A stretch of DNA of 64,000 nucleotides, taken from positions 201,491 through 265,490 of the forward strand of contig NZ_FOSS01000002.1 in assembly GCF_900114355.1 (NCBI RefSeq). Direction: 5' to 3'. Shown one piece after another: positions 1,947-11,579 of this stretch. The notes below the pieces were generated by a model. That model saw only the letters and a list, made by a program, of their open reading frames with translations. It was not told the DNA's origin and did no database searches. Made by a program: the position numbers and the translations under genes. How positions within the stretch are numbered: the stretch's first letter is position 1; every line of letters starts with the position of its first letter. The DNA comes from Lysobacter sp. cf310 (GTDB taxonomy: Bacteria > Pseudomonadota > Gammaproteobacteria > Xanthomonadales > Xanthomonadaceae).

Positions 1947-4900
1947 TCAGTACTTCTTCTCCAGGTTCAGCAGGATGCCATGGTCGCTGTCGTCATCGCT
2001 GCCGAACAAACCGCGGTACTCGAAGCGCAGGGTGAAGTCGCGCTCGGTGTGCAGGATCGCACCCAGTCCGAACACGAAACGGTTGCGCTCCAGCCCTTCG
2101 ATCTCGGCCCGGTAGAACGGACCGGACAGCAGGTCGGCGTAGTTCATGGTGACCGCGCTGTCGTCCTGGAAGTCGTGCTGGTACTCGAAACGCAGCTGCG
2201 GCGAGAAGGTGCCGTAGCTGACCGGGATCTCGTAGTCGAGCCGCAGGCCGACGCTGGCCGTGGTGGTGTCGACGTCCTGATCCTGGTAACGCAGCGCATA
2301 CACCGCGTCGCCCTGCTCGGTGTACCCGTCCAGACGCGCGCGGGCGATATCGACGCGGGCGTAGGGCGAGATGTGCAGGCGGTCGCGCTGGTAGTCGCCG
2401 CCGGCCGAGAACGAGGCGAACCACTGCGTGCCGTCGCGCTCGCCGCGCACGCGGCCGCCGTTGGCGGTCACGTAGCGGCGCGAGTCGAACGACAGCCACT
2501 GGTAGCCGAGCAGACCGTCGAGGAAGAAGGTCTCGCCCGGGTGGTAGCTGCCGTACAGCGCGAGCGTGTAGCTCTTGGCGTCGCTGCGGGTGCCGTTGCG
2601 GCCGATGTCGGTGTTGTCGCGGCCGTAACCGATACCGCCACCGATCGCGAACGCATCGTTGACGCGGGTGTCGATGCCGGCGCTGATGCCGGTGGTCTCG
2701 AAGTCGAAACCGGCGCTGCCCGAACGGCTGTCGCGGTCGCCGCTGTTGAGCGCGCCACCGGTCCAGATCGTGAACGAGCTCGCATCGCCGCCGCCCGACG
2801 CAGGCGCGGCGGTTTCCACCGGCGCCGCCTCGTCGCGGGTGGCGACCTGACGGCAGTCGCTGCCCGGGGTGCGGCGCACGTCGTCGGCGCAACGGCGATC
2901 CACGCCGAAGCTGATCCGATTCTGGAAGCGCGCGCCGTCGCCGTTGCCGCCGTGCATGCCCTCCATGCGCTGCTGGAAGTTGCCGATCTGCGAGGTGGCG
3001 AAGCGACGCGCGGCCGAGGTCTGCGCACCGAGCAGGCCCATGACTTCCGCATCCTGGGTCGGATCCGGACGGCCGGCGACGTCGAAGTCGATGGTCGCCG
3101 GGGCCGAGGTCGCATAGGCGTTGCTGAGCGTGAACGTGGCCGTGGCCGTGCCCGAGAACGAGGCCGCCGGAGTGAAGGTCAGGCGGTAGCTCGCGCTGGC
3201 GCCGCTGCCCGAGGACGCGATGGTCGCGGTGCCGGCACCGGCCGGCGTCAGCGAGACCAGGTTGGCGGCGGTGAACGGCCCACCGGTCGCGCCGGTGGTG
3301 AGCTCGACCGTGACCGGCGTGCCGGCGATCGCGGCGACCCGGCGCGACACCGCGACCGGCAACGGATTGACCGTGACCGTCGAGGTGATCGGCGCCGAGG
3401 GGCCGAAGGCGTTGTTCAAGGTGTAGACGATCGACACCGAGCCCGAGGCGCTGGCCAGCGGGGTGTAGGTGATGTTGGTGCCCGCCACGGTGGTGGTGCC
3501 CGTGGCCGGCGCGGTCACGATGGTGACGCCGGTATACGGACTGCCGGTGGCGCCGACCGTGGTGTCGATGGTCACCGGCTGGCCGGCCAGCGTGGTCGCG
3601 GCGCGCGGCTGTCCGACCGGCACCGGCAGCGGCGTGACCGTGATCGAGACCGTGGCCGGAGCCGACGTGCCGCCCGGGCCGATCGCGGTGTAGGTCAGCG
3701 TGTCCGGACCGAAGTACGCGGTGGCCGGGGTGTAGACGATGTTCAGTCCGCTGACCGTCGCTGTGCCGTGCGCCGGCGCCGAGGCGATCGCGATGGACGT
3801 GATCACGCCGGTGTCGTTGGCGGTGACGGCGATGGTCACCGGTTGCTGCGCCAGGGTCGTGGCGGTGTCGTTGTTGGCCACCGGCACGGCGTCGGCGATC
3901 ACGATGGTGTAGTTCACCGTGGTGTTGTAGCCGGCGTCGTCGGTGGAACGGATCGCGGCGGTGTAGCTGCCGGCGGTGGTCGGGGTGCCGCTGAGCACGC
4001 CGGCCGAGCTGAAGGCCAGACCGACCGGCAGGTTGCCCGAGACGATCGAGTAGGTGTACGGCGCGATGCCGCCACTGCTGCTCAGGCTCTGGGTGTACGC
4101 CACACCGACCGTGCCGCCGGGCAAGGTCGCCGGCGAGATCGTCACGATCGCCGGGGCGATGGTGAAGGTGTACACGCGCAAAGCCGTCTGGCTGTTGGCG
4201 TCGGTCGACTGCACGGTGATGCCGAAGTTGCCGTCCGAACGCGGGATGCCGGAGAGCGCACCGCCCGAGGTGAAGCTCATGCCGACCGGCAGCGCGCCGG
4301 ACGTCAGCGCGTAGCTGTAAGGCGCGACGCCGCCGGTGGAGCTGAACTGCACGCTATACGACACGGCCGCGGTGCCGTTGGGCAGGCTCGGCGGATCGAT
4401 CGTGATCGCCGGGGTCGCTACCACGATGGTGTAGTTCTGCTGCAACGCGAACGGCGCGCCCGCGCCGGTGCTGGCATCGGTGACTCGCACGGCGATGTTG
4501 TAGTTGCCCGGCACGGTCGGCGTACCGCTGAGCACGCCGGCGGAGCTGAAGCTCACCCCGACCGGCAGCGAACCGGCGGCCAGCGAGAAGCTGTACGGAC
4601 CGGTGCCGCCGCTGGCGGCGAAGTTGATGGTGGTGGCGACGCCGTAGTTCATCGGCAGGTTGCCGGCGGCCGGCGTCATGCTCAGCGTCGGCGCGCCGAC
4701 GGTCAGGGTGAAGGCCTGGCCGACGGTGAACGGACCGTTGCCGGTGCTGGAGTCGGTGGCGCTGGCGTTGAGCGCGAACGAACCCGCCGCGGTCGGCGTG
4801 CCCGACACGGTCACGCTGTTGGCGGTGGTGCCGGTGATGCTCAGGCCCGCCGGCAGGTTGGCGACGTTGTAGCCGGAGAACGGCTGAGTACCGCCGTTCC

Positions 4901-7900
4901 AGGTGAAGGTCTGGCTATAGGCGCCACCGATCTGCGCCGTCAGCGGACCGCTCGCGGTCACGGTGATGGTCGGGTTGGACACGGTGATGGTCACCGTGGC
5001 CGGCGCCGAAGTACCGGCGCTGTTGGTCGCGGTATAGGTGAAGCTGTCCGGACCGGCGTAACCGGCGGTCGGCGTGTAGCTGATCGTGGTACCGCTGGCC
5101 GTCGCCGTGCCATGCGCCGCCGCTGCCGCCACCGCCACCGAGGACGGAATGCCGCCGGTGATGTTCAGCGTGATCGGATTGGCGCTGCTGTCGTAGGCCA
5201 CCGTCGCCGAGACCGGGTTGGCCACCGGCACGATGTCGTTGACCAGCAGGGTGTAGCTCTGCGGCGCCGACGTGTACGGGCCGCTGCCGGTGCTGCTGTC
5301 GGTCGCGGTCAGGCTGAAGTTGTAGCTGCCCGGCGCGGTCGGCGTGCCGGTGATGCCACCGGAACTGCTGACCGACAGGCCCGGCGGCAGCGCGCCGCTG
5401 ACCAGCGCGTAGGTGTATGGCGAGACGCCGCCGGTGGCGCCGGTCACGGCCACGCCATACGCGTTGGTCACGGTCGCGTTCGGCAGAGTCGTCGGCGGCA
5501 GGATCACCGTCGCGGCCGTGATCAACAGAGTGTAGGAGTTCGAGCCCGTGTACGGGCCGCTGCCGGTGCTGCTGTCGGTGGCGGTAACGGTGAAGTTGAA
5601 GGTACCGCCCGCCGTCGGCGTGCCGCTCAGCGTGCCGTTGCTGGCCAGGCTCAGGCCGGCCGGCAAGGCGCCGGCGGTGACCGCGAAGCTGTAGCCGGCG
5701 GTGCCGCCCGAGGCGGTGATGGTCTGGCTGTAGGCCTGGGCCACGCCGCCGTTGGGCAGGGTCGCCGGGGCGACGGTGATGGTCGCCGCGCTCACGGTCA
5801 GGCTGTAGGCGCGCGAACCGGTCTGGCCATGGTTGTCGGTGGCGGTGACGGTGAAGTTGAAGGTACCGCCCGCGGTCGGCGTGCCACTGAGGGTGCCGGT
5901 GCCGCTCAGGCTGACCCCGGCCGGCAAGGCGCCGGCGGTGACCGCATAGGTGTACGGCGCGATGCCGCCCGCCGCGCTCACGGCCTGGCTGTAGGCGACG
6001 CCGATCTGCGCGCCCGGCACGGTCGCCGGCGTGATCGTGATCGTCGGCGCGGCCACCTGCAGCACATAGTTCTGCGTACGCGCGAACGGTGCGCCGGTGC
6101 CGGTGGAGCTGTCGGTCGCGCGCACCGAGAAGGTGAACAAGCCGGTGACAGTCGGCGTACCCGAGAGCACGCCGGTGTTGGCGTCCAGACTCAGGCCGGC
6201 CGGCAAGGCGCCCGCCGACACCGCATAGGTGTAAGCCGGCGTACCGCCGCTGGCGACGAAGGTCTGGCTATAGGCCGTGCCGTAGGTCGCGTTCAAGGTA
6301 CCGGCCGCCGGCGTCATGCTCAGCGTCGGCGCGCTCACGCTCAGGGTGAAGGCCTGGCCGACGGTGAACGGACCGTTGCCGGTGCTGGAGTCGGTGGCGC
6401 TGGCGTTGAGCGCGAACGAACCCGCTGCGGTCGGCGTGCCCGACACGGTCACGCTGTTGGCGGTGTTGCCGGTGATGCTCAAGCCCGCCGGCAGGTTGGT
6501 GACGTTGTAGCCGGAGAACGGTTGAGTACCGCCGTTCCAGCTGAAGGTCTGGCTGTAAGCGACGCCGATCTGCGCGGTCAGCGGGCCGCCTGCGGTCACG
6601 GTGATGGTCGGGTTGCCGACGGTGATGGTCACCGTGGCCGGCGCCGAGGTGCCGGCGCTGTTGGTCGCGGTATAGGTGAAGCTGTCCGGACCGGCGTAAC
6701 CGGCGGTCGGCGTGTAGCTGATCGTGGTGCCGCTGGCGATCGCGGTGCCGTGCGCGGCCGCCGTGCCGATCGCCACCGAGGTCGGAACGCCACCGGTGAT
6801 GTTCAGCGTGATCGGGTTGGCGCTGCTGTTGTAGGCCACCGTCGCCGAGACCGGGTTGGCGACCGGCGGGATGTTGACGATCTGCAGCGTGTAGCCACGC
6901 GGCGCCGAGCTGTAGGGGCCGGTGCCGGTGCTGCTGTCGGTCGCGGTCACGGCGAAGTTGAACGTGCCCGCGGCGGTCGGCGTGCCGGACAGCGCGCCGG
7001 TGCTGCTGCTCAGGGCGATGCCCGGCGGCAAGGCGCCTGCGGTGACGGCGTAGGCATACGGCGCGATGCCGCCGCTGGCCGGATTGAGCGTGGCGCTGTA
7101 AGCCACGTTCTGGGTGCCGTTGGCCAGCGTGGTCGCCGGCAGCAAGATGGTCGGTGCGGCGATCGTCAGCGCGTAGGCGCGCGAACCGGTGTGCGGCGCG
7201 CTGGTGCCGGTGCTGCTGCCGGTGGCGGTGACCGTGAAGTTGAAGAGGCCGCCCGCCGTGGGCGTGCCGCTCAGCGTGCCGGTGCCGCTCAGCGTCATGC
7301 CCGCGGGCAACGCGCCCGCAGTGATCGCGTAGCTGTACGGCGCGATGCCACCGCTGGCGGTGATGGCCTGGCTGTAGGCCGCCGCGACCGTGCCGTTGGG
7401 CAAGGTGGTCGGCGCGATCGCGATCACCGGCGGTGCCACCGCCAGGGTGTAGGCACGAGTGCCCGAGAAGTTGTTGGCGTCGGTCGCGCGCACCGTGAAG
7501 TTGAAGGTGCCGGCCGCGGTCGGCGTGCCGGTCAGGGCGCCGGAGGTGGTGTTGAGGCTCAAGCCGGCCGGCAAGGCGCCGGCGGTGATCGCGAAGGTGT
7601 AAGGCGCGGTACCGCCGCTGCCGGTGAAGGTCTGGCTATACGCCGCGCCCACGGTCGCGCCCGGAATGCTGGCCGGGTTGACCACGATGGTCGGCGCGAC
7701 CACCACGGTCAGGGTGACCGTCTCGACTTCGAAATAGGTGCCCGGGCCGGTGCTGCCGTCGGTGACGCGAATGCCGAAGGTGTAGGTGCCCAGGGTGGTC
7801 GGGGTGCCGCTGAGGGTCGCGCCGCTCAGGCTCAGGCCTGGCGGCAGCGGGCCGGATGCGACTTCGTGGGCGTAGCTGTGCGGGGTGACGCCGCCGGTGG

Positions 7901-8627
7901 TGCTGAAGGTCACCGAATACGGAAAGCCCTGGGCCGCGTTCGGCGGCGTGGTCGGTGCGATCTGCAGGGTCGGGTTGGCGACGTTCGGGGTGTAGGTCTT
8001 GACGCCGCTGACGCTGCTGGAGTCGGTGGCGCGGATCGAGAACGCGGTCGCGCCGCGCTGGGTCGGGGTGCCGCTGAGCACGCCACCGCTGGTCAGGCTG
8101 AGCCCGACCGGCAGCGTGCCGCTGTCGAGCGCATAGGTATAGCCGCCGCTGCCGCCGGTGGCGGTCAGGGTCACGCTGAAGGGCGTGCCGGCGGTCAGGC
8201 TGATCGTGGCCGGGCCGATCACGATGGTCGAGGCCGGGCCGATCGCCACGGTGACGGTTATGTCGCCGCCGAGATCGTCCTGGATCACGAAGGTGTCGGT
8301 GGTCGCGCTGTCGCCGTTATGGGCGTAGGTCAGCGGCAGGTTGCTGCCGCTCTGCACGCCCACCGTGCGGGTGCCGTGCGGCGTGGCCGCGGTGCCGGCG
8401 GTGATGCCGAAGCCGCCATGGCAGTGATTGACGTTGATGGTCTGCGAGCCGCTGTGCGCGACCGACATGCTCAGGGTCGGGCAGAACGTCGATGGCGCCG
8501 CCATCGCGGCCTGCGGCCACACGCTCGCCAGGCATAGCAGCGCGGTGGCTAGCCACGAGAACCAGGAAAAGAAGACGTGCGAAGGCGCACGCGGCGTCTC
8601 CACGCTATGCGCAAAATGCTGATGCAT
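1947..8627 (-). CDS. Giant autotransporter with about 14 He_PIG-type Ig repeats and a C-terminal beta-barrel
   Basis: A 2226-residue surface protein. Residues 1 to about 42 are a long signal peptide (hydrophobic ATALLCLASVWPQAAMAA). A short Cys-containing N-terminal segment is followed by about 14 putative Ig (He_PIG) repeats, each recognisable by SGG-APY-Y, LPAGLSL and SGTPT-G-FNF-V-ATD. Interspersed are bacterial Ig/cadherin-like modules (SYTPTAGYAGPDSFTYTATN). Residues from about 1951 to the end form a type V autotransporter barrel (FTIWTGGALNSGDRD, alternating strands, terminal aromatic Tyr). The stop is TGA at 1947-1949. The frame continues upstream to 9458, but that part is antisense to other genes. 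I choose ATG 8627 because the signal peptide begins there, with GGGGC upstream. It diverges from the tail-collar genes. The likely role is adhesion or surface display; no protease or passenger enzyme domain is visible. Confidence 0.92.
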   Translation of the reverse strand: MHQHFAHSVETPRAPSHVFFSWFSWLATALLCLASVWPQAAMAAPSTFCPTLSMSVAHSGSQTINVNHCHGGFGITAGTAATPHGTRTVGVQSGSNLPLTYAHNGDSATTDTFVIQDDLGGDITVTVAIGPASTIVIGPATISLTAGTPFSVTLTATGGSGGYTYALDSGTLPVGLSLTSGGVLSGTPTQRGATAFSIRATDSSSVSGVKTYTPNVANPTLQIAPTTPPNAAQGFPYSVTFSTTGGVTPHSYAHEVASGPLPPGLSLSGATLSGTPTTLGTYTFGIRVTDGSTGPGTYFEVETVTLTVVVAPTIVVNPASIPGATVGAAYSQTFTGSGGTAPYTFAITAGALPAGLSLNTTSGALTGTPTAAGTFNFTVRATDANNFSGTRAYTLAVAPPVIAIAPTTLPNGTVAAAYSQAITASGGIAPYSYAITAGALPAGMTLSGTGTLSGTPTAGGLFNFTVTATGSSTGTSAPHTGSRAYALTIAAPTILLPATTLANGTQNVAYSATLNPASGGIAPYAYAVTAGALPPGIALSSSTGALSGTPTAAGTFNFAVTATDSSTGTGPYSSAPRGYTLQIVNIPPVANPVSATVAYNSSANPITLNITGGVPTSVAIGTAAAHGTAIASGTTISYTPTAGYAGPDSFTYTATNSAGTSAPATVTITVGNPTITVTAGGPLTAQIGVAYSQTFSWNGGTQPFSGYNVTNLPAGLSITGNTANSVTVSGTPTAAGSFALNASATDSSTGNGPFTVGQAFTLSVSAPTLSMTPAAGTLNATYGTAYSQTFVASGGTPAYTYAVSAGALPAGLSLDANTGVLSGTPTVTGLFTFSVRATDSSTGTGAPFARTQNYVLQVAAPTITITPATVPGAQIGVAYSQAVSAAGGIAPYTYAVTAGALPAGVSLSGTGTLSGTPTAGGTFNFTVTATDNHGQTGSRAYSLTVSAATITVAPATLPNGGVAQAYSQTITASGGTAGYSFAVTAGALPAGLSLASNGTLSGTPTAGGTFNFTVTATDSSTGSGPYTGSNSYTLLITAATVILPPTTLPNATVTNAYGVAVTGATGGVSPYTYALVSGALPPGLSVSSSGGITGTPTAPGSYNFSLTATDSSTGSGPYTSAPQSYTLLVNDIVPVANPVSATVAYDSSANPITLNITGGIPSSVAVAAAAAHGTATASGTTISYTPTAGYAGPDSFTYTATNSAGTSAPATVTITVSNPTITVTASGPLTAQIGGAYSQTFTWNGGTQPFSGYNVANLPAGLSITGTTANSVTVSGTPTAAGSFALNASATDSSTGNGPFTVGQAFTLTVGAPTLSMTPAAGNLPMNYGVATTINFAASGGTGPYSFSLAAGSLPVGVSFSSAGVLSGTPTVPGNYNIAVRVTDASTGAGAPFALQQNYTIVVATPAITIDPPSLPNGTAAVSYSVQFSSTGGVAPYSYALTSGALPVGMSFTSGGALSGIPRSDGNFGITVQSTDANSQTALRVYTFTIAPAIVTISPATLPGGTVGVAYTQSLSSSGGIAPYTYSIVSGNLPVGLAFSSAGVLSGTPTTAGSYTAAIRSTDDAGYNTTVNYTIVIADAVPVANNDTATTLAQQPVTIAVTANDTGVITSIAIASAPAHGTATVSGLNIVYTPATAYFGPDTLTYTAIGPGGTSAPATVSITVTPLPVPVGQPRAATTLAGQPVTIDTTVGATGSPYTGVTIVTAPATGTTTVAGTNITYTPLASASGSVSIVYTLNNAFGPSAPITSTVTVNPLPVAVSRRVAAIAGTPVTVELTTGATGGPFTAANLVSLTPAGAGTATIASSGSGASASYRLTFTPAASFSGTATATFTLSNAYATSAPATIDFDVAGRPDPTQDAEVMGLLGAQTSAARRFATSQIGNFQQRMEGMHGGNGDGARFQNRISFGVDRRCADDVRRTPGSDCRQVATRDEAAPVETAAPASGGGDASSFTIWTGGALNSGDRDSRSGSAGFDFETTGISAGIDTRVNDAFAIGGGIGYGRDNTDIGRNGTRSDAKSYTLALYGSYHPGETFFLDGLLGYQWLSFDSRRYVTANGGRVRGERDGTQWFASFSAGGDYQRDRLHISPYARVDIARARLDGYTEQGDAVYALRYQDQDVDTTTASVGLRLDYEIPVSYGTFSPQLRFEYQHDFQDDSAVTMNYADLLSGPFYRAEIEGLERNRFVFGLGAILHTERDFTLRFEYRGLFGSDDDSDHGILLNLEKKY
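4670..5310 (-). repeat. Internal segmental duplication in the autotransporter, copy A
   Basis: This roughly 640-bp block is nearly identical at DNA level to 6308-6948, offset by exactly 1638 bp (546 codons, in frame). It encodes one cadherin-like module plus one He_PIG module (PVANPVSATVAY... through NLPAGLSITG...). The identity is much higher than between other repeats of the protein. Confidence 0.85.
6308..6948 (-). repeat. Internal segmental duplication in the autotransporter, copy B
   Basis: Partner of 4670-5310. Differences are scattered substitutions, for example codons giving IPSSVAVAA in one copy and VPTSVAIGT in the other. The in-frame offset points to recombination or slippage within the repeat array. 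Confidence 0.85.
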
Positions 8628-8921
8628 GTTCTGCCCCTGTTGACACCGCACGAGCTCGATCGGCCGCTGGCTGTCGAACCGTCCGGCGAGACTCGAATCC
8701 CTGTCCGCGGACATCGGGCTTGCACCCGAGCCGCACCCCTTGCGAACTGCTCCCGCCCATTCAATCAGGATTCGATCAGCAAAGAAAGTGCCTACCACTT
8801 CACAGATTCGCATGTTGCACTGCCACAAAAAATTAGCTTGTACCGCATGCGGCCTGTGAGCGAGAGTAACGGCCGCACCGGACATGACGTCCCGTGCCAC
8901 CATCCTTTTGGGGGAAAAGGT
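8628..8921. promoter_or_regulatory. Divergent control region between autotransporter and tail-collar cluster
   Basis: 294 bases without a gene, between two divergent starts. It is locally AT-rich at 8824-8837 (acaaaaaattagct), preceded by ttgcac at 8815-8820, a possible -35 for the tail-collar side. No good -10 is visible, so I make no firm promoter call. The Shine-Dalgarno for the first tail-collar gene (gggggaaaagg) lies at its 3' end. Confidence 0.4.
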
Positions 8922-9446
8922 ATGACCGAAGTCTTCCTCGGGCAGATCATGCTCACGGGGTTTGCGTTTGCGCCCAAGGGCTTTGCCCTGTGCAACGGAC
9001 AACTCCTGCCGATCGCTCAGAACCAAGCGTTGTTTTCCTTGCTCGGCACGACCTACGGCGGCAACGGCACCACCAACTTCCAGCTGCCGAACATGCAGTC
9101 GCGGACGCCGGCAGGCTTCGGCAACTCGGTCGACGGCGGCTGGAACCCGGCGCCCTACCAGCAGGGCGAGATCGGCGGCGTCGAGAGCGTGACCCTGCTG
9201 CAGACCCAGATGCCCGGCCACAACCATCTGGTCAACGGCACCAGCGCCACCGGCGCCATCCGTAACCCGACCAACGGCCTGTACGGCACCAACAGCACCT
9301 CTATCTTCGGCCCCTCCAACGGCGCTCTGGTGCCGCTGCAAGGCATGGGAATGGCGGGCGGCAATCAGCCTCACGCGAACATGCAGCCCTACACCGTGAT
9401 CAATTTCGTGATCGCACTGAACGGCATCTATCCGTCGCGTAACTGA
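8922..9446 (+). CDS. Phage tail-collar domain protein, MdpB-like (copy 1)
   Basis: A 174-residue protein of the tail-collar/microcystin-dependent protein family. The collar domain starts at once (FLGQIMLTGFAFAPKGFALCNGQLLPI), has the usual FSLLGTTYGGNGTTNFQLPNM turn, then GNQPHANMQPYTVINFVIALNGIYPS at the end. In phages this fold forms part of the tail or fibre attachment. In chromosomal MdpB-like proteins the role is not established. No signal peptide is present. Start ATG 8922 is preceded by gggggaaaagg. It is the first of three tandem paralogues transcribed away from the autotransporter. No other tail, baseplate or capsid gene is present, so it is not a prophage remnant in any obvious sense. 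Confidence 0.9.
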   Translation: MTEVFLGQIMLTGFAFAPKGFALCNGQLLPIAQNQALFSLLGTTYGGNGTTNFQLPNMQSRTPAGFGNSVDGGWNPAPYQQGEIGGVESVTLLQTQMPGHNHLVNGTSATGAIRNPTNGLYGTNSTSIFGPSNGALVPLQGMGMAGGNQPHANMQPYTVINFVIALNGIYPSRN

Positions 9447-9476
9447 GCCTCCGGCCAACCTTTACAGGAGTTTCCT

Positions 9477-10007
9477 ATGAGCACCCCTTACGTCGGAGAA
9501 ATCCGCATGTTCGGCTTCGGGCGCACCCCGAACGGTTGGTTCAACTGCGACGGTTCGTTGAAGTCCATCGCCGAATACGAAGTGCTGTACACCCTGATCG
9601 GCACCACCTATGGCGGCGACGGCCAGAGCACCTTCGCCGTGCCCGATTTGCGCGGCCGCGTGCCGCTGCACCAGGGCACCGGCCCGGGCCTGAGCACCCG
9701 CGTGATCGGCGAGATGAGCGGCACCGAGAGCGTCACCCTGATCCAGACCCAGCTGCCGCAGCACAACCACCCGCTGATGGCGACCACCGCCGCGGCCACC
9801 ACCGGCACCGTCGGCGCCACCGTGCTACCCGCCGCGGTGGCGGGCGACACCATGTACGTCACCGACATCGCCGGTGCCACCCCCGCCGTCATGTCTCCCC
9901 TCGCGACCACGGCGATCGGCGGCAACCAGCCGCACGACAACCTGATGCCGACCCTCACGGTGCAGTACTGCATCGCCTGGGCGGGCGTCTTCCCGTCGCA
10001 GAGCTGA
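9477..10007 (+). CDS. Phage tail-collar domain protein, MdpB-like (copy 2)
   Basis: A 176-residue paralogue of the preceding gene, 30 bases downstream with its own caggag ribosome site. The N-terminus (YVGEIRMFGFGRTPNGWFNCDGSL) and the TYGGDGQSTFAVPDLRGRVPLHQG core are standard tail-collar sequence. The end is GNQPHDNLMPTLTVQYCIAWAGVFPS. It is diverged from copies 1 and 3 (residues in the core and variable loop differ widely), so the three are old paralogues and not a recent amplification. The central Ala/Thr-rich loop (MATTAAATTGTVGATV) differs in each copy and is the likely ligand- or partner-facing part. It is probably co-transcribed with both neighbours. Confidence 0.9.
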   Translation: MSTPYVGEIRMFGFGRTPNGWFNCDGSLKSIAEYEVLYTLIGTTYGGDGQSTFAVPDLRGRVPLHQGTGPGLSTRVIGEMSGTESVTLIQTQLPQHNHPLMATTAAATTGTVGATVLPAAVAGDTMYVTDIAGATPAVMSPLATTAIGGNQPHDNLMPTLTVQYCIAWAGVFPSQS

Positions 10008-10042
10008 GCGGCCGTCGCGCATACAGAATCGAGGACTACGAC

Positions 10043-10576
10043 ATGACCGAACCTTTCATCGGCGAAATCCAGCTGTTCGGATTCAACTTCGCCCCGCGCG
10101 GCTGGGCCTCCTGCAACGGCGCCACCCTGGCCATCCAGCAGAACACCGCACTGTTCTCGCTGCTGGGCACCCAGTACGGCGGCAACGGCCAGACCACGTT
10201 CCAGCTGCCCAACTTCGTCAACCGCGCCGGCTGCAACCAGGGCCAGGGCGGCGGCCTCACCCCGCGCACCACGGGCGAGGTGTTCGGCTCCAACAGCGTG
10301 ACCCTGACCCAGTCCACGATGCCTTCGCATAGCCATACGCTGACCCTGTACAACCAGCCGGATAGCAACAAGCGCACCAACACGCCGGCAGCCGGCAACT
10401 ACCTGGGCGTGCCGACGGCCAGCAATCCGTTCGTCACCAACCCCACCGCCAACGCGCAGTTCGCCCCCAATATGTGCGGTCCCACCGGCGGCGGCCAGCC
10501 GCACGAGAACCGTCAGCCCTACCTCGCGTCGAACTTCTGCATCGCGTTGCAGGGCATTTTCCCCAGCTTCGGCTGA
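10043..10576 (+). CDS. Phage tail-collar domain protein, MdpB-like (copy 3)
   Basis: A 177-residue third paralogue. It begins FIGEIQLFGFNFAPRGWASCNGATLAIQQ, contains LLGTQYGGNGQTTFQLPNFVNRAG, and ends with GGQPHENRQPYLASNFCIALQGIFPSFG. The start is ATG 10043 after gaggactacgac. The GNAT gene begins 4 bases after its stop, which suggests translational coupling and a shared job. The variable loop here is Asn/Thr-rich (YNQPDSNKRTNTPAAGNYLG). No secretion signal is visible, so if it is displayed it must use another route. Confidence 0.9.
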   Translation: MTEPFIGEIQLFGFNFAPRGWASCNGATLAIQQNTALFSLLGTQYGGNGQTTFQLPNFVNRAGCNQGQGGGLTPRTTGEVFGSNSVTLTQSTMPSHSHTLTLYNQPDSNKRTNTPAAGNYLGVPTASNPFVTNPTANAQFAPNMCGPTGGGQPHENRQPYLASNFCIALQGIFPSFG

Positions 10577-10580
10577 GGCC

Positions 10581-11144
10581 ATGCAGGCACCGTCGCAGCC
10601 GCTGCCGTTCCCGCGCAGCGACGATAGGCAGGGCCGCGACGGCCGCCTGGCGACACCCGCGCTCCTGAGCGAGCGCGGGTTCGCATTGCGCCCCGCGCGC
10701 GACGACGATCTGCCCTGGCTGCGCGCCCTGTACGCCAGCACCCGCGCCGAAGAGCTCGCCACGATCCCTTGGCCCGACGAGGCCAAGCGCGCCTTTCTCG
10801 ACAGCCAGTTCGCGCTGCAGCACCAGCACTATCTGCTGCACTACGCCGATGCCGACTTCCTCGCGATCGAACGCAACGGCGCTCCGGTCGGCCGCTATTA
10901 CCTGCAAAGGGGCGCGCCCTATCACCTGATCGTCGATATCAGCCTGCTGCCCGCCGCGCGCGGCCACGGCATCGCCAGCGCCTTGATCGAACACAGCCAG
11001 CGCGATGCCGCCGCGCTGGGCCGCGGCCTGCACCTGCACGTGGCCTCGGACAACATCGGCGCGCAGCGCTTGTATCGGCGCCTGGGTTTCGTCCAGATCG
11101 AAGACAGCGGCGCTCACCGGCGCCTGTGCTGGCCGGCGCCCTGA
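10581..11144 (+). CDS. GNAT family N-acetyltransferase linked to the tail-collar genes
   Basis: A 187-residue GNAT-fold acyltransferase that should transfer an acetyl group from acetyl-CoA. The pyrophosphate-binding motif A is visible as LLPAARGHGIASALI (R-G-x-G at about 127-130), followed by the motif B region NIGAQRLYRRLGF. Residues 1-32 are an unusual N-terminal extension before the domain start (FALRPARDDDLPWLRALYASTRAEELA). The gene starts 4 bases after the third tail-collar gene, so it is almost certainly in the same operon. The target is unknown. Its position suggests it may acetylate one of the tail-collar proteins or a surface molecule, but that is inference. Confidence 0.85.
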   Translation: MQAPSQPLPFPRSDDRQGRDGRLATPALLSERGFALRPARDDDLPWLRALYASTRAEELATIPWPDEAKRAFLDSQFALQHQHYLLHYADADFLAIERNGAPVGRYYLQRGAPYHLIVDISLLPAARGHGIASALIEHSQRDAAALGRGLHLHVASDNIGAQRLYRRLGFVQIEDSGAHRRLCWPAP

Positions 11145-11282
11145 CCCTCGCGATCCGCTCAGGATGGGCGGCGTAAGCCGCGACCGCGCACCGTGCCGCA
11201 CGATCGGCGCCCGCGCTCACGATGACTCAGATCAGGCTTGCGGGCATCCAACCGCCAAACGGACCCTGGGCCCGCTCCGCCC

Positions 11283-11579
11283 TCAGTTGAATATCGCCTG
11301 ATACAAAAAGCCTTCGCGCTCGCGCGCGATCGGCACCAGCATGATCCCGATTTCGCCCACGCTGTCGTGGCGCATCAGATAGGTCTGCTGCGGGAACAGG
11401 AACGAGGAGGTATTGCGGAACAGCAGCGAGAACGGCGCGCGCGCCGCCCCCGGCATGGCCTGGCGTGGGTCTAGCGCCCGCGCCTCGACCAGTACGAACG
11501 GCACTTCGCCGTCGTTCAAGGCCGCCGAGAAGGTCTCGTTCACGTAGCGGGCGAAATGATCCAGCGTCAGCAATTCCAT
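11283..11579 (-). CDS. DUF6916-like small protein
   Basis: A 98-residue protein starting MELLTLDHFARYVNETFSA and ending in the pattern GEIGIMLVPIAREREGFLYQAIFN, which I recognise from small DUF6916-type proteins that often sit near tail-collar genes. No catalytic motif, signal peptide or membrane segment is seen. The fold is likely all-beta. It converges with the tail-collar/GNAT operon, with about 138 bases between. A gggg ribosome site sits 7-10 bases upstream of ATG 11579. The family assignment is from memory of the sequence pattern and was not searched. Confidence 0.7.
   Translation of the reverse strand: MELLTLDHFARYVNETFSAALNDGEVPFVLVEARALDPRQAMPGAARAPFSLLFRNTSSFLFPQQTYLMRHDSVGEIGIMLVPIAREREGFLYQAIFN

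Follow-up and report, generated by a model that had tools for sequence, protein, structure and literature searches.

The window, meaning the whole 64,000-nucleotide stretch of DNA that was analysed, corresponds to C2:201491-265490 of its genome. It carries a giant Ig-repeat autotransporter of 2226 aa, the presumed surface stalk, at positions 1947-8627 on the minus strand. This protein has a signal peptide (by inspection), a passenger with 14 He_PIG stretches and a C-terminal beta-barrel at residues 1954-2204 (Pfam Autotransporter, E 3e-59), the arrangement that defines type Va autotransporters and that it shares with the adhesins of this type, for which we know of no accessory set of collar, GNAT and DUF6916 genes. 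The longest frame is 2503 aa, with a TTG start at 9458 and an overlap with the first collar gene, but the 2226-aa version, which begins at an ATG (8627) and has the signal peptide at its start, is likely to be the real gene. An intergenic region (8628-8921), presumed to hold both promoters, separates the autotransporter from a divergent plus-strand operon that encodes three collar subunits of 174 aa (8922-9446), 176 aa (9477-10007) and 177 aa (10043-10576). Each has a PxHxH motif and matches PF07484 (E 5e-26 to 2e-25; 88.8-90.9 bits against a curated cut-off of 24), and a search of the whole genome gave no PF07484 match besides these three. A GNAT acetyltransferase of 187 aa (10581-11144, plus strand; Pfam) follows collar 3 after 4 bases and is convergent with a 98-aa DUF6916 protein (11283-11579, minus strand), a true member of PF21880 (E 3e-29; 101 bits, curated cut-off 27). 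Comparison of the six genes with a congener locus (L033) gave dN/dS values of 0.21-0.52, and all six are under purifying selection.

The collar domain, and the matches of the window collars to PHROG tail families, could be read as the leftovers of a prophage or tailocin. Against this, Terminase_6N and Phage_portal have no match in the whole genome, and the sole match to Phage_sheath_1 lies on contig C6 whereas the window is on C2. The four nearby genes scanned with Pfam are ordinary: three encode Excalibur/YHYH, DUF1993 and SoxR proteins, and the fourth matched no family and looks HD-like by eye. Phage records gave 243 collar matches at 276 places, about one place per record, with none at 60% identity or more and at most 35.8% among the 25 listed, and the window DUF6916 protein used as query had no match in 50,697 phage records. 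With the purifying selection and the ancient subunit classes described below, these results make a phage remnant extremely improbable, while the collar fold itself is possibly of ancient phage origin. An earlier note on this DNA had described the autotransporter, three collars, GNAT and DUF6916 and had held that they were not prophage leftovers; translation and Pfam place all of these genes where it had put them, and neither the three phage marker families, searched genome-wide, nor the four neighbours give any sign of a prophage or tailocin. The sheath match (C6:396115-396561, in an 801-aa frame) may mark a tailocin or contractile injection system at another site of the genome.

The same gene set and order was found again in other genera of the family. 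Among 119 family genomes, the source genome included, collars occur in 38 and DUF6916 in 31 (one of these below the curated cut-off), and all 31 belong to the 33 genomes with a collar triplet, a count that takes in one triplet split over contigs (G014) and one cut by a contig end (G049). Two triplet genomes (G064, G118) are without DUF6916, and the five further collar genomes have a single collar match. DUF6916 is sited away from the triplet on another contig in G061 and about 14 kb off in G089. When the window and 34 family loci were mapped, 20 of the 35 showed a barrel homologue divergent from collar 1, then collars 1-2-3 and GNAT; this counts 19 of the 34 loci other than the window. A convergent DUF6916 gene is present in 19 of these 20 (exception L052), and in L043, L055 and L057 the He_PIG part is the only part of the autotransporter visible. 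In another lineage of the family (e.g. L044, L045, L054, L058) the giant, about 1800-2600 aa long, is a different one and sits immediately upstream in the same orientation. At the level of the phylum (249 genomes) collars were found in 67 genomes and DUF6916 in 34 (33 over the cut-off), with both in 33 of the 34. Three neighbouring collar matches occur in 26 of the 67 collar genomes, including one with partly fused genes (G207) and one with atypical frames (G264), and in G246 three matches fall in one frame; the remaining collar genomes have one or two matches, some within long phage-like frames. DUF6916 without a linked collar was seen in G188 (L191), the exception above, which has no collar match in its genome, and in G168 (L192, L193), where the two are about 46 kb apart.

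Outside the phylum survey, plasmid records gave 69 matches, with three places in 34 of the 40 listed; the triplet hosts among the matches listed included Rhizobium, Ensifer, Deinococcus, Paenibacillus, Spirosoma, Azospirillum, Comamonas, Ruegeria and Aminobacter. The cassette is also carried by a strain of Sinorhizobium meliloti. From a scan of genome contigs the best 80 of 589 relatives were kept; these 80 stem from nine phyla and are biased towards the triplet-derived query. Together with the window, 34 family loci and 10 plasmid loci, these best 80 of 589 make up a collection of 125 loci mostly picked by collar similarity, in which 118 have exactly three clustered collars and none has a larger cluster. 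The 118 triplet loci, best 80 of 589 included, represent eight named phyla among the genome loci plus Deinococcota (L069). The non-triplet loci have collars at or near a contig end (L040, L041, L048, L142, L144), two collars separated by roughly the length of a collar (L147) or one collar (L076). GNAT lies within 4 kb in 106 of the 118 triplet loci and DUF6916 within 4-5 kb in 93, again in a set including the best 80 of 589 relatives. That the genes form a real module, conserved in bacteria, is strongly supported.

The three collars are not interchangeable. In a FastTree phylogeny of 285 collars from 95 triplets (loci including the best 80 of 589), 27 changes of position label were required, compared with 134.6 for shuffled labels, and a value as low was reached in none of 200 shuffles. 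Class profiles for positions 1, 2 and 3 were made from 66 Pseudomonadota and family triplets and applied to 43 triplets of other phyla (best 80 of 589 included), where one subunit per class was found in 43/43 against a random expectation of 6 of 27. The order was 1-2-3 in 33 of these triplets, 2-1-3 in 7 and different in 3, so the gene order shuffles while the set of three is retained. The classes are therefore ancient and conserved across phyla.

Fusions and arrays follow the same rule. L198 encodes one collar and a 559-aa collar-collar-GNAT fusion, and L199 a collar and a collar-collar fusion; both contain classes 1, 2 and 3, in L199 with small margins. A 730-aa protein in L197 combines three collar cores with RTX-like repeats (RTX by eye). 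Two contigs of unsettled origin from viral collections carry six collars in L207 (class order 2-1-3-2-1-3) and nine in L211 (3-2-3, then 1-2-3 twice). Exceptions to the rule are L208, L212 and L213, whose triplets do not score as one of each class, and the first set of L211. L207 also carries collagen-CBM96 genes, and since the collagen repeats match PHROG tail families as well, its viral or bacterial origin is unsettled. Three collars are not obligatory, as single-collar loci (L177-L185, L188-L190, L202) and two-collar loci (L186, L187) occur, several of the former with giant, GNAT and DUF6916 (e.g. L178, L179, L183). Seven single collars scored nearly equally against all three classes, which would fit a homotrimer. 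Such systems, and the central loops that differ among the window collars, could mean that the triplets form three separate homotrimers of different specificities; this is unlikely in view of the 43/43 triplets with one of each class, the arrays in multiples of three, the fusions across classes 2 and 3 and the purification of a virophage triplet as a heterotrimer, according to the accessible part of that report (PMC12724248).

The collars are related to the heads of phage fibres. A profile of 64 collars matched a long tail fibre (8kec, E 5e-9) and T4 gp12 (1ocy, E 1.2e-4; also 1pdi and 5iv5) in the PDB, and T4 gp10 weakly (E 0.13). Of 354 collars (loci including the best 80 of 589 relatives), 351 carry a PxHxH-like motif; conservation covers the first ~90 and the last ~25 residues, and the stretch after the motif is variable. 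In phage fibres the HxH-type motif binds metal, and the title of the T4 gp12 structure paper speaks of a 'knitted trimeric metal-binding fold'. The window collars resemble gp12 in profile homology and in their HxH-type motif. The gp12 head is the homotrimeric end of a longer phage protein, whereas the window encodes, in a bacterium, free subunits of ~175 aa of three kinds. AlphaFold modelled one collar alone poorly (pLDDT 56).

COG4675 is presumably the COG of the collars. RhiB of the Rhizobium rhiABC operon is tabled there as 'microcystin-dependent protein' and RhiA and RhiC as 'not in COG', in the portion of the source available (PMC6969944). The label falls on a single rhi gene, with RhiA and RhiC as its neighbours, compared with three collars in the window. 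A closer parallel to the triplet is virophage DSLV2. As described in the accessible sections of its report, three consecutive PF07484 proteins co-purify as a ~55-kDa 1:1:1 heterotrimer, the tripartite tail proteins form ~16-nm fibres, and the trimer binds Synechococcus cells in ELISA, which an anti-LPS antibody blocks (PMC12724248). The window likewise has three consecutive PF07484 genes, a likeness of domain and description rather than of aligned sequences. The DSLV2 triplet is viral and stands next to a minor capsid gene, whereas that of the window has the autotransporter and GNAT as neighbours and no adjacent minor capsid gene; GNAT, DUF6916 and a giant adhesin are features of the window, and none is seen for DSLV2 in those sections (PMC12724248). 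A heterotrimer of the three collars is well supported in general and would be expected in this genome too. The trio very likely forms the head of a fibre, with three subunits.

Position and fusions both link the GNAT to the collars, and the nearest other match to the window GNAT in its own genome is 30% identical. As residue 2, 324 of 354 collars (best 80 of 589 included) have S, A or T, compared with 195 of the 398 genes predicted in the family loci, a count that takes in those of the module; such a residue would suit N-terminal acetylation. DUF6916 is joined to GNAT in a fusion alongside three collars in L206. The window DUF6916 protein is predicted to be a small all-beta fold of six strands (pLDDT 94.5) whose resemblance to PilZN/YcgR-N-type domains is no more than weak.

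A giant, taken as a T/S/N/G/D-rich frame of at least 1000 aa within 4.5 kb, was sought in loci with 6 kb on both sides. It was present in 71 of 88 triplet loci (set including the best 80 of 589 relatives), and compared like for like in 24/28 family loci versus 0/20 control windows of family genomes (0/60 centres); with the composition filter dropped, long frames were common in the controls as well (10/20). Five of the 17 triplet loci in which the filter found no giant have one by length alone. Ten giants besides that of the window were scanned for domains, and their anchors and repeats differ between lineages: the autotransporter barrel (window), SLH in Paenibacillus (L070, L147), a T9SS tail in Dyadobacter (L089), CWB2 in Desulfosporosinus (L109), RTX in Caulobacter (L155), DUF4347 in the single-collar L178 and cadherin or Big repeats elsewhere. 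IPTL- and LPXTG-like tails were recognised by eye in L127 and L145. The autotransporter is accordingly one lineage's version of a variable giant partner, and the core is broader than the earlier note had thought. Two of its other points were borne out, while modification of the assembly by the GNAT and its display by the autotransporter are still candidate roles. The co-occurrence it had suggested looking for was found, with all 31 DUF6916 genomes of the family having a triplet and 33 of 34 in the phylum a collar, and the multi-part assembly it had read from three paralogues is backed by the usual count of three, the three ancient classes, the fusions and, in the accessible part of its report, the virophage heterotrimer (PMC12724248). 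In the autotransporter and its listed homologues (19, window included) a similar cysteine-bearing stretch follows the signal peptide, as judged by eye, and is a candidate docking tip.

Export signals differ between loci. A simple filter detected signal peptides in 0/354 collars of the triplet set (loci including the best 80 of 589 relatives), but found a Sec signal on each of the six collars that L208 and L213 encode. In both of these a secreted frame, cut by the contig end, follows the triplet within 14 bases, with a YDG-domain protein in L213. L208 and L213 are filed as viral (IMG/VR), yet their Sec-signal collars followed by a secreted frame look bacterial. Of the 23 gaps over 300 nt between collar 3 and GNAT, 13 contain a gene with a twin-arginine start, and such genes are present in 25 of 118 2-kb segments downstream of the triplet (best 80 of 589 included) versus 24 of 360 controls. 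DUF6916 proteins with Tat- or Sec-type signals account for some of these genes and for further ones close by; most of the DUF6916 proteins found have no export signal. Folded collars could plausibly be co-exported with a Tat partner. In the window no Tat gene lies in the 4-base gap between collar 3 and GNAT, and as the collars have no signal peptide either, the export route there is unexplained.

These observations bear on whether the collars, GNAT and DUF6916 instead form a cytoplasmic or periplasmic complex for folding, modification or export quality of the giant, outside the displayed fibre. The signal-free triplet-set collars (0/354, best 80 of 589 included) and most DUF6916 proteins are compatible with it, as are giants that are diverse in domains and common only in being huge and secreted-looking, and RhiA, encoded beside rhiB, is cytoplasmic and serves as a cytoplasmic marker in the part of the source available (PMC2275737). 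It is nevertheless rather unlikely, given the Sec signals on the six collars of two loci, the RTX-like fusion of L197, the homology to receptor-binding heads, the variable stretch after the PxHxH motif and a PF07484 protein, from a triplet or not, that is reported in the accessible text as a potential interaction protein in the exoproteome of Ruegeria pomeroyi (PMC4949626).

The module is probably a surface-binding device working with the giant stalk. The three collars would assemble 1:1:1 into a compact trimeric knob resembling the receptor-binding end of T4 gp12 or gp37. We infer that this knob would be exported and would dock on, or act next to, the giant surface-anchored repeat protein, in the window the Ig autotransporter, so that a head binding glycans or LPS would sit on a long stalk and may serve adhesion or cell-cell contact. 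The GNAT would act on proteins of the module itself, the most likely target being the conserved S/A/T N-termini of the collars, and DUF6916 may have an accessory part in assembly or export. Homology to phage receptor-binding heads, and virophage trimer binding that is LPS-dependent according to the available text (PMC12724248), would also suit fibre heads that face competitors or phages, as a receptor-masking or phage-decoy coat over the cell's own or a neighbour's LPS. This is very unlikely, as the six window proteins have no match in PADLOC (2023 library) and most triplet loci have a giant adhesin-like partner, which would be superfluous for masking. A non-phage surface-binding system with an exported heterotrimeric head, a giant stalk and GNAT and DUF6916 as accessories is the best explanation of the whole, with a probability of roughly 0.55. 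A wider proposal is that a domesticated phage-fibre head, built as a heterotrimer of three ancient paralogues and matured by a dedicated GNAT and DUF6916, is common to bacteria of at least nine phyla and carried on each lineage's own giant stalk, as a trans-phylum modular organelle of adhesion or recognition; we put this at somewhat less than even.

No description of the bacterial system was found in searches of an open-access library; the idea of a heterotrimer is already known from the virophage, in the portion of the report available (PMC12724248). Many bacterial genes annotated as 'tail fiber protein' or 'microcystin-dependent protein' may be subunits of one recurring complex and not prophage debris or lone proteins. 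If so, this would connect the receptor-binding folds of phages with giant adhesins and with an acetyltransferase dedicated to the complex, and collar proteins of the triplet type and DUF6916 would have a testable function. COG4675 proteins, members of a triplet or not, are made in nature, as they are listed in soil metaproteome tables of proteins with preferred abundance in the accessible part of the source (PMC5579227).

In two family loci (L053, L066) and on an Azospirillum oryzae plasmid (L073) the triplet and GNAT adjoin lasso-peptide-like genes, with no giant. The annotated neighbours in L073 are PqqD, a lasso B2 protein, asparagine synthetase and 2OG-Fe oxygenases, and the lasso-like reading of L053 was made by eye.
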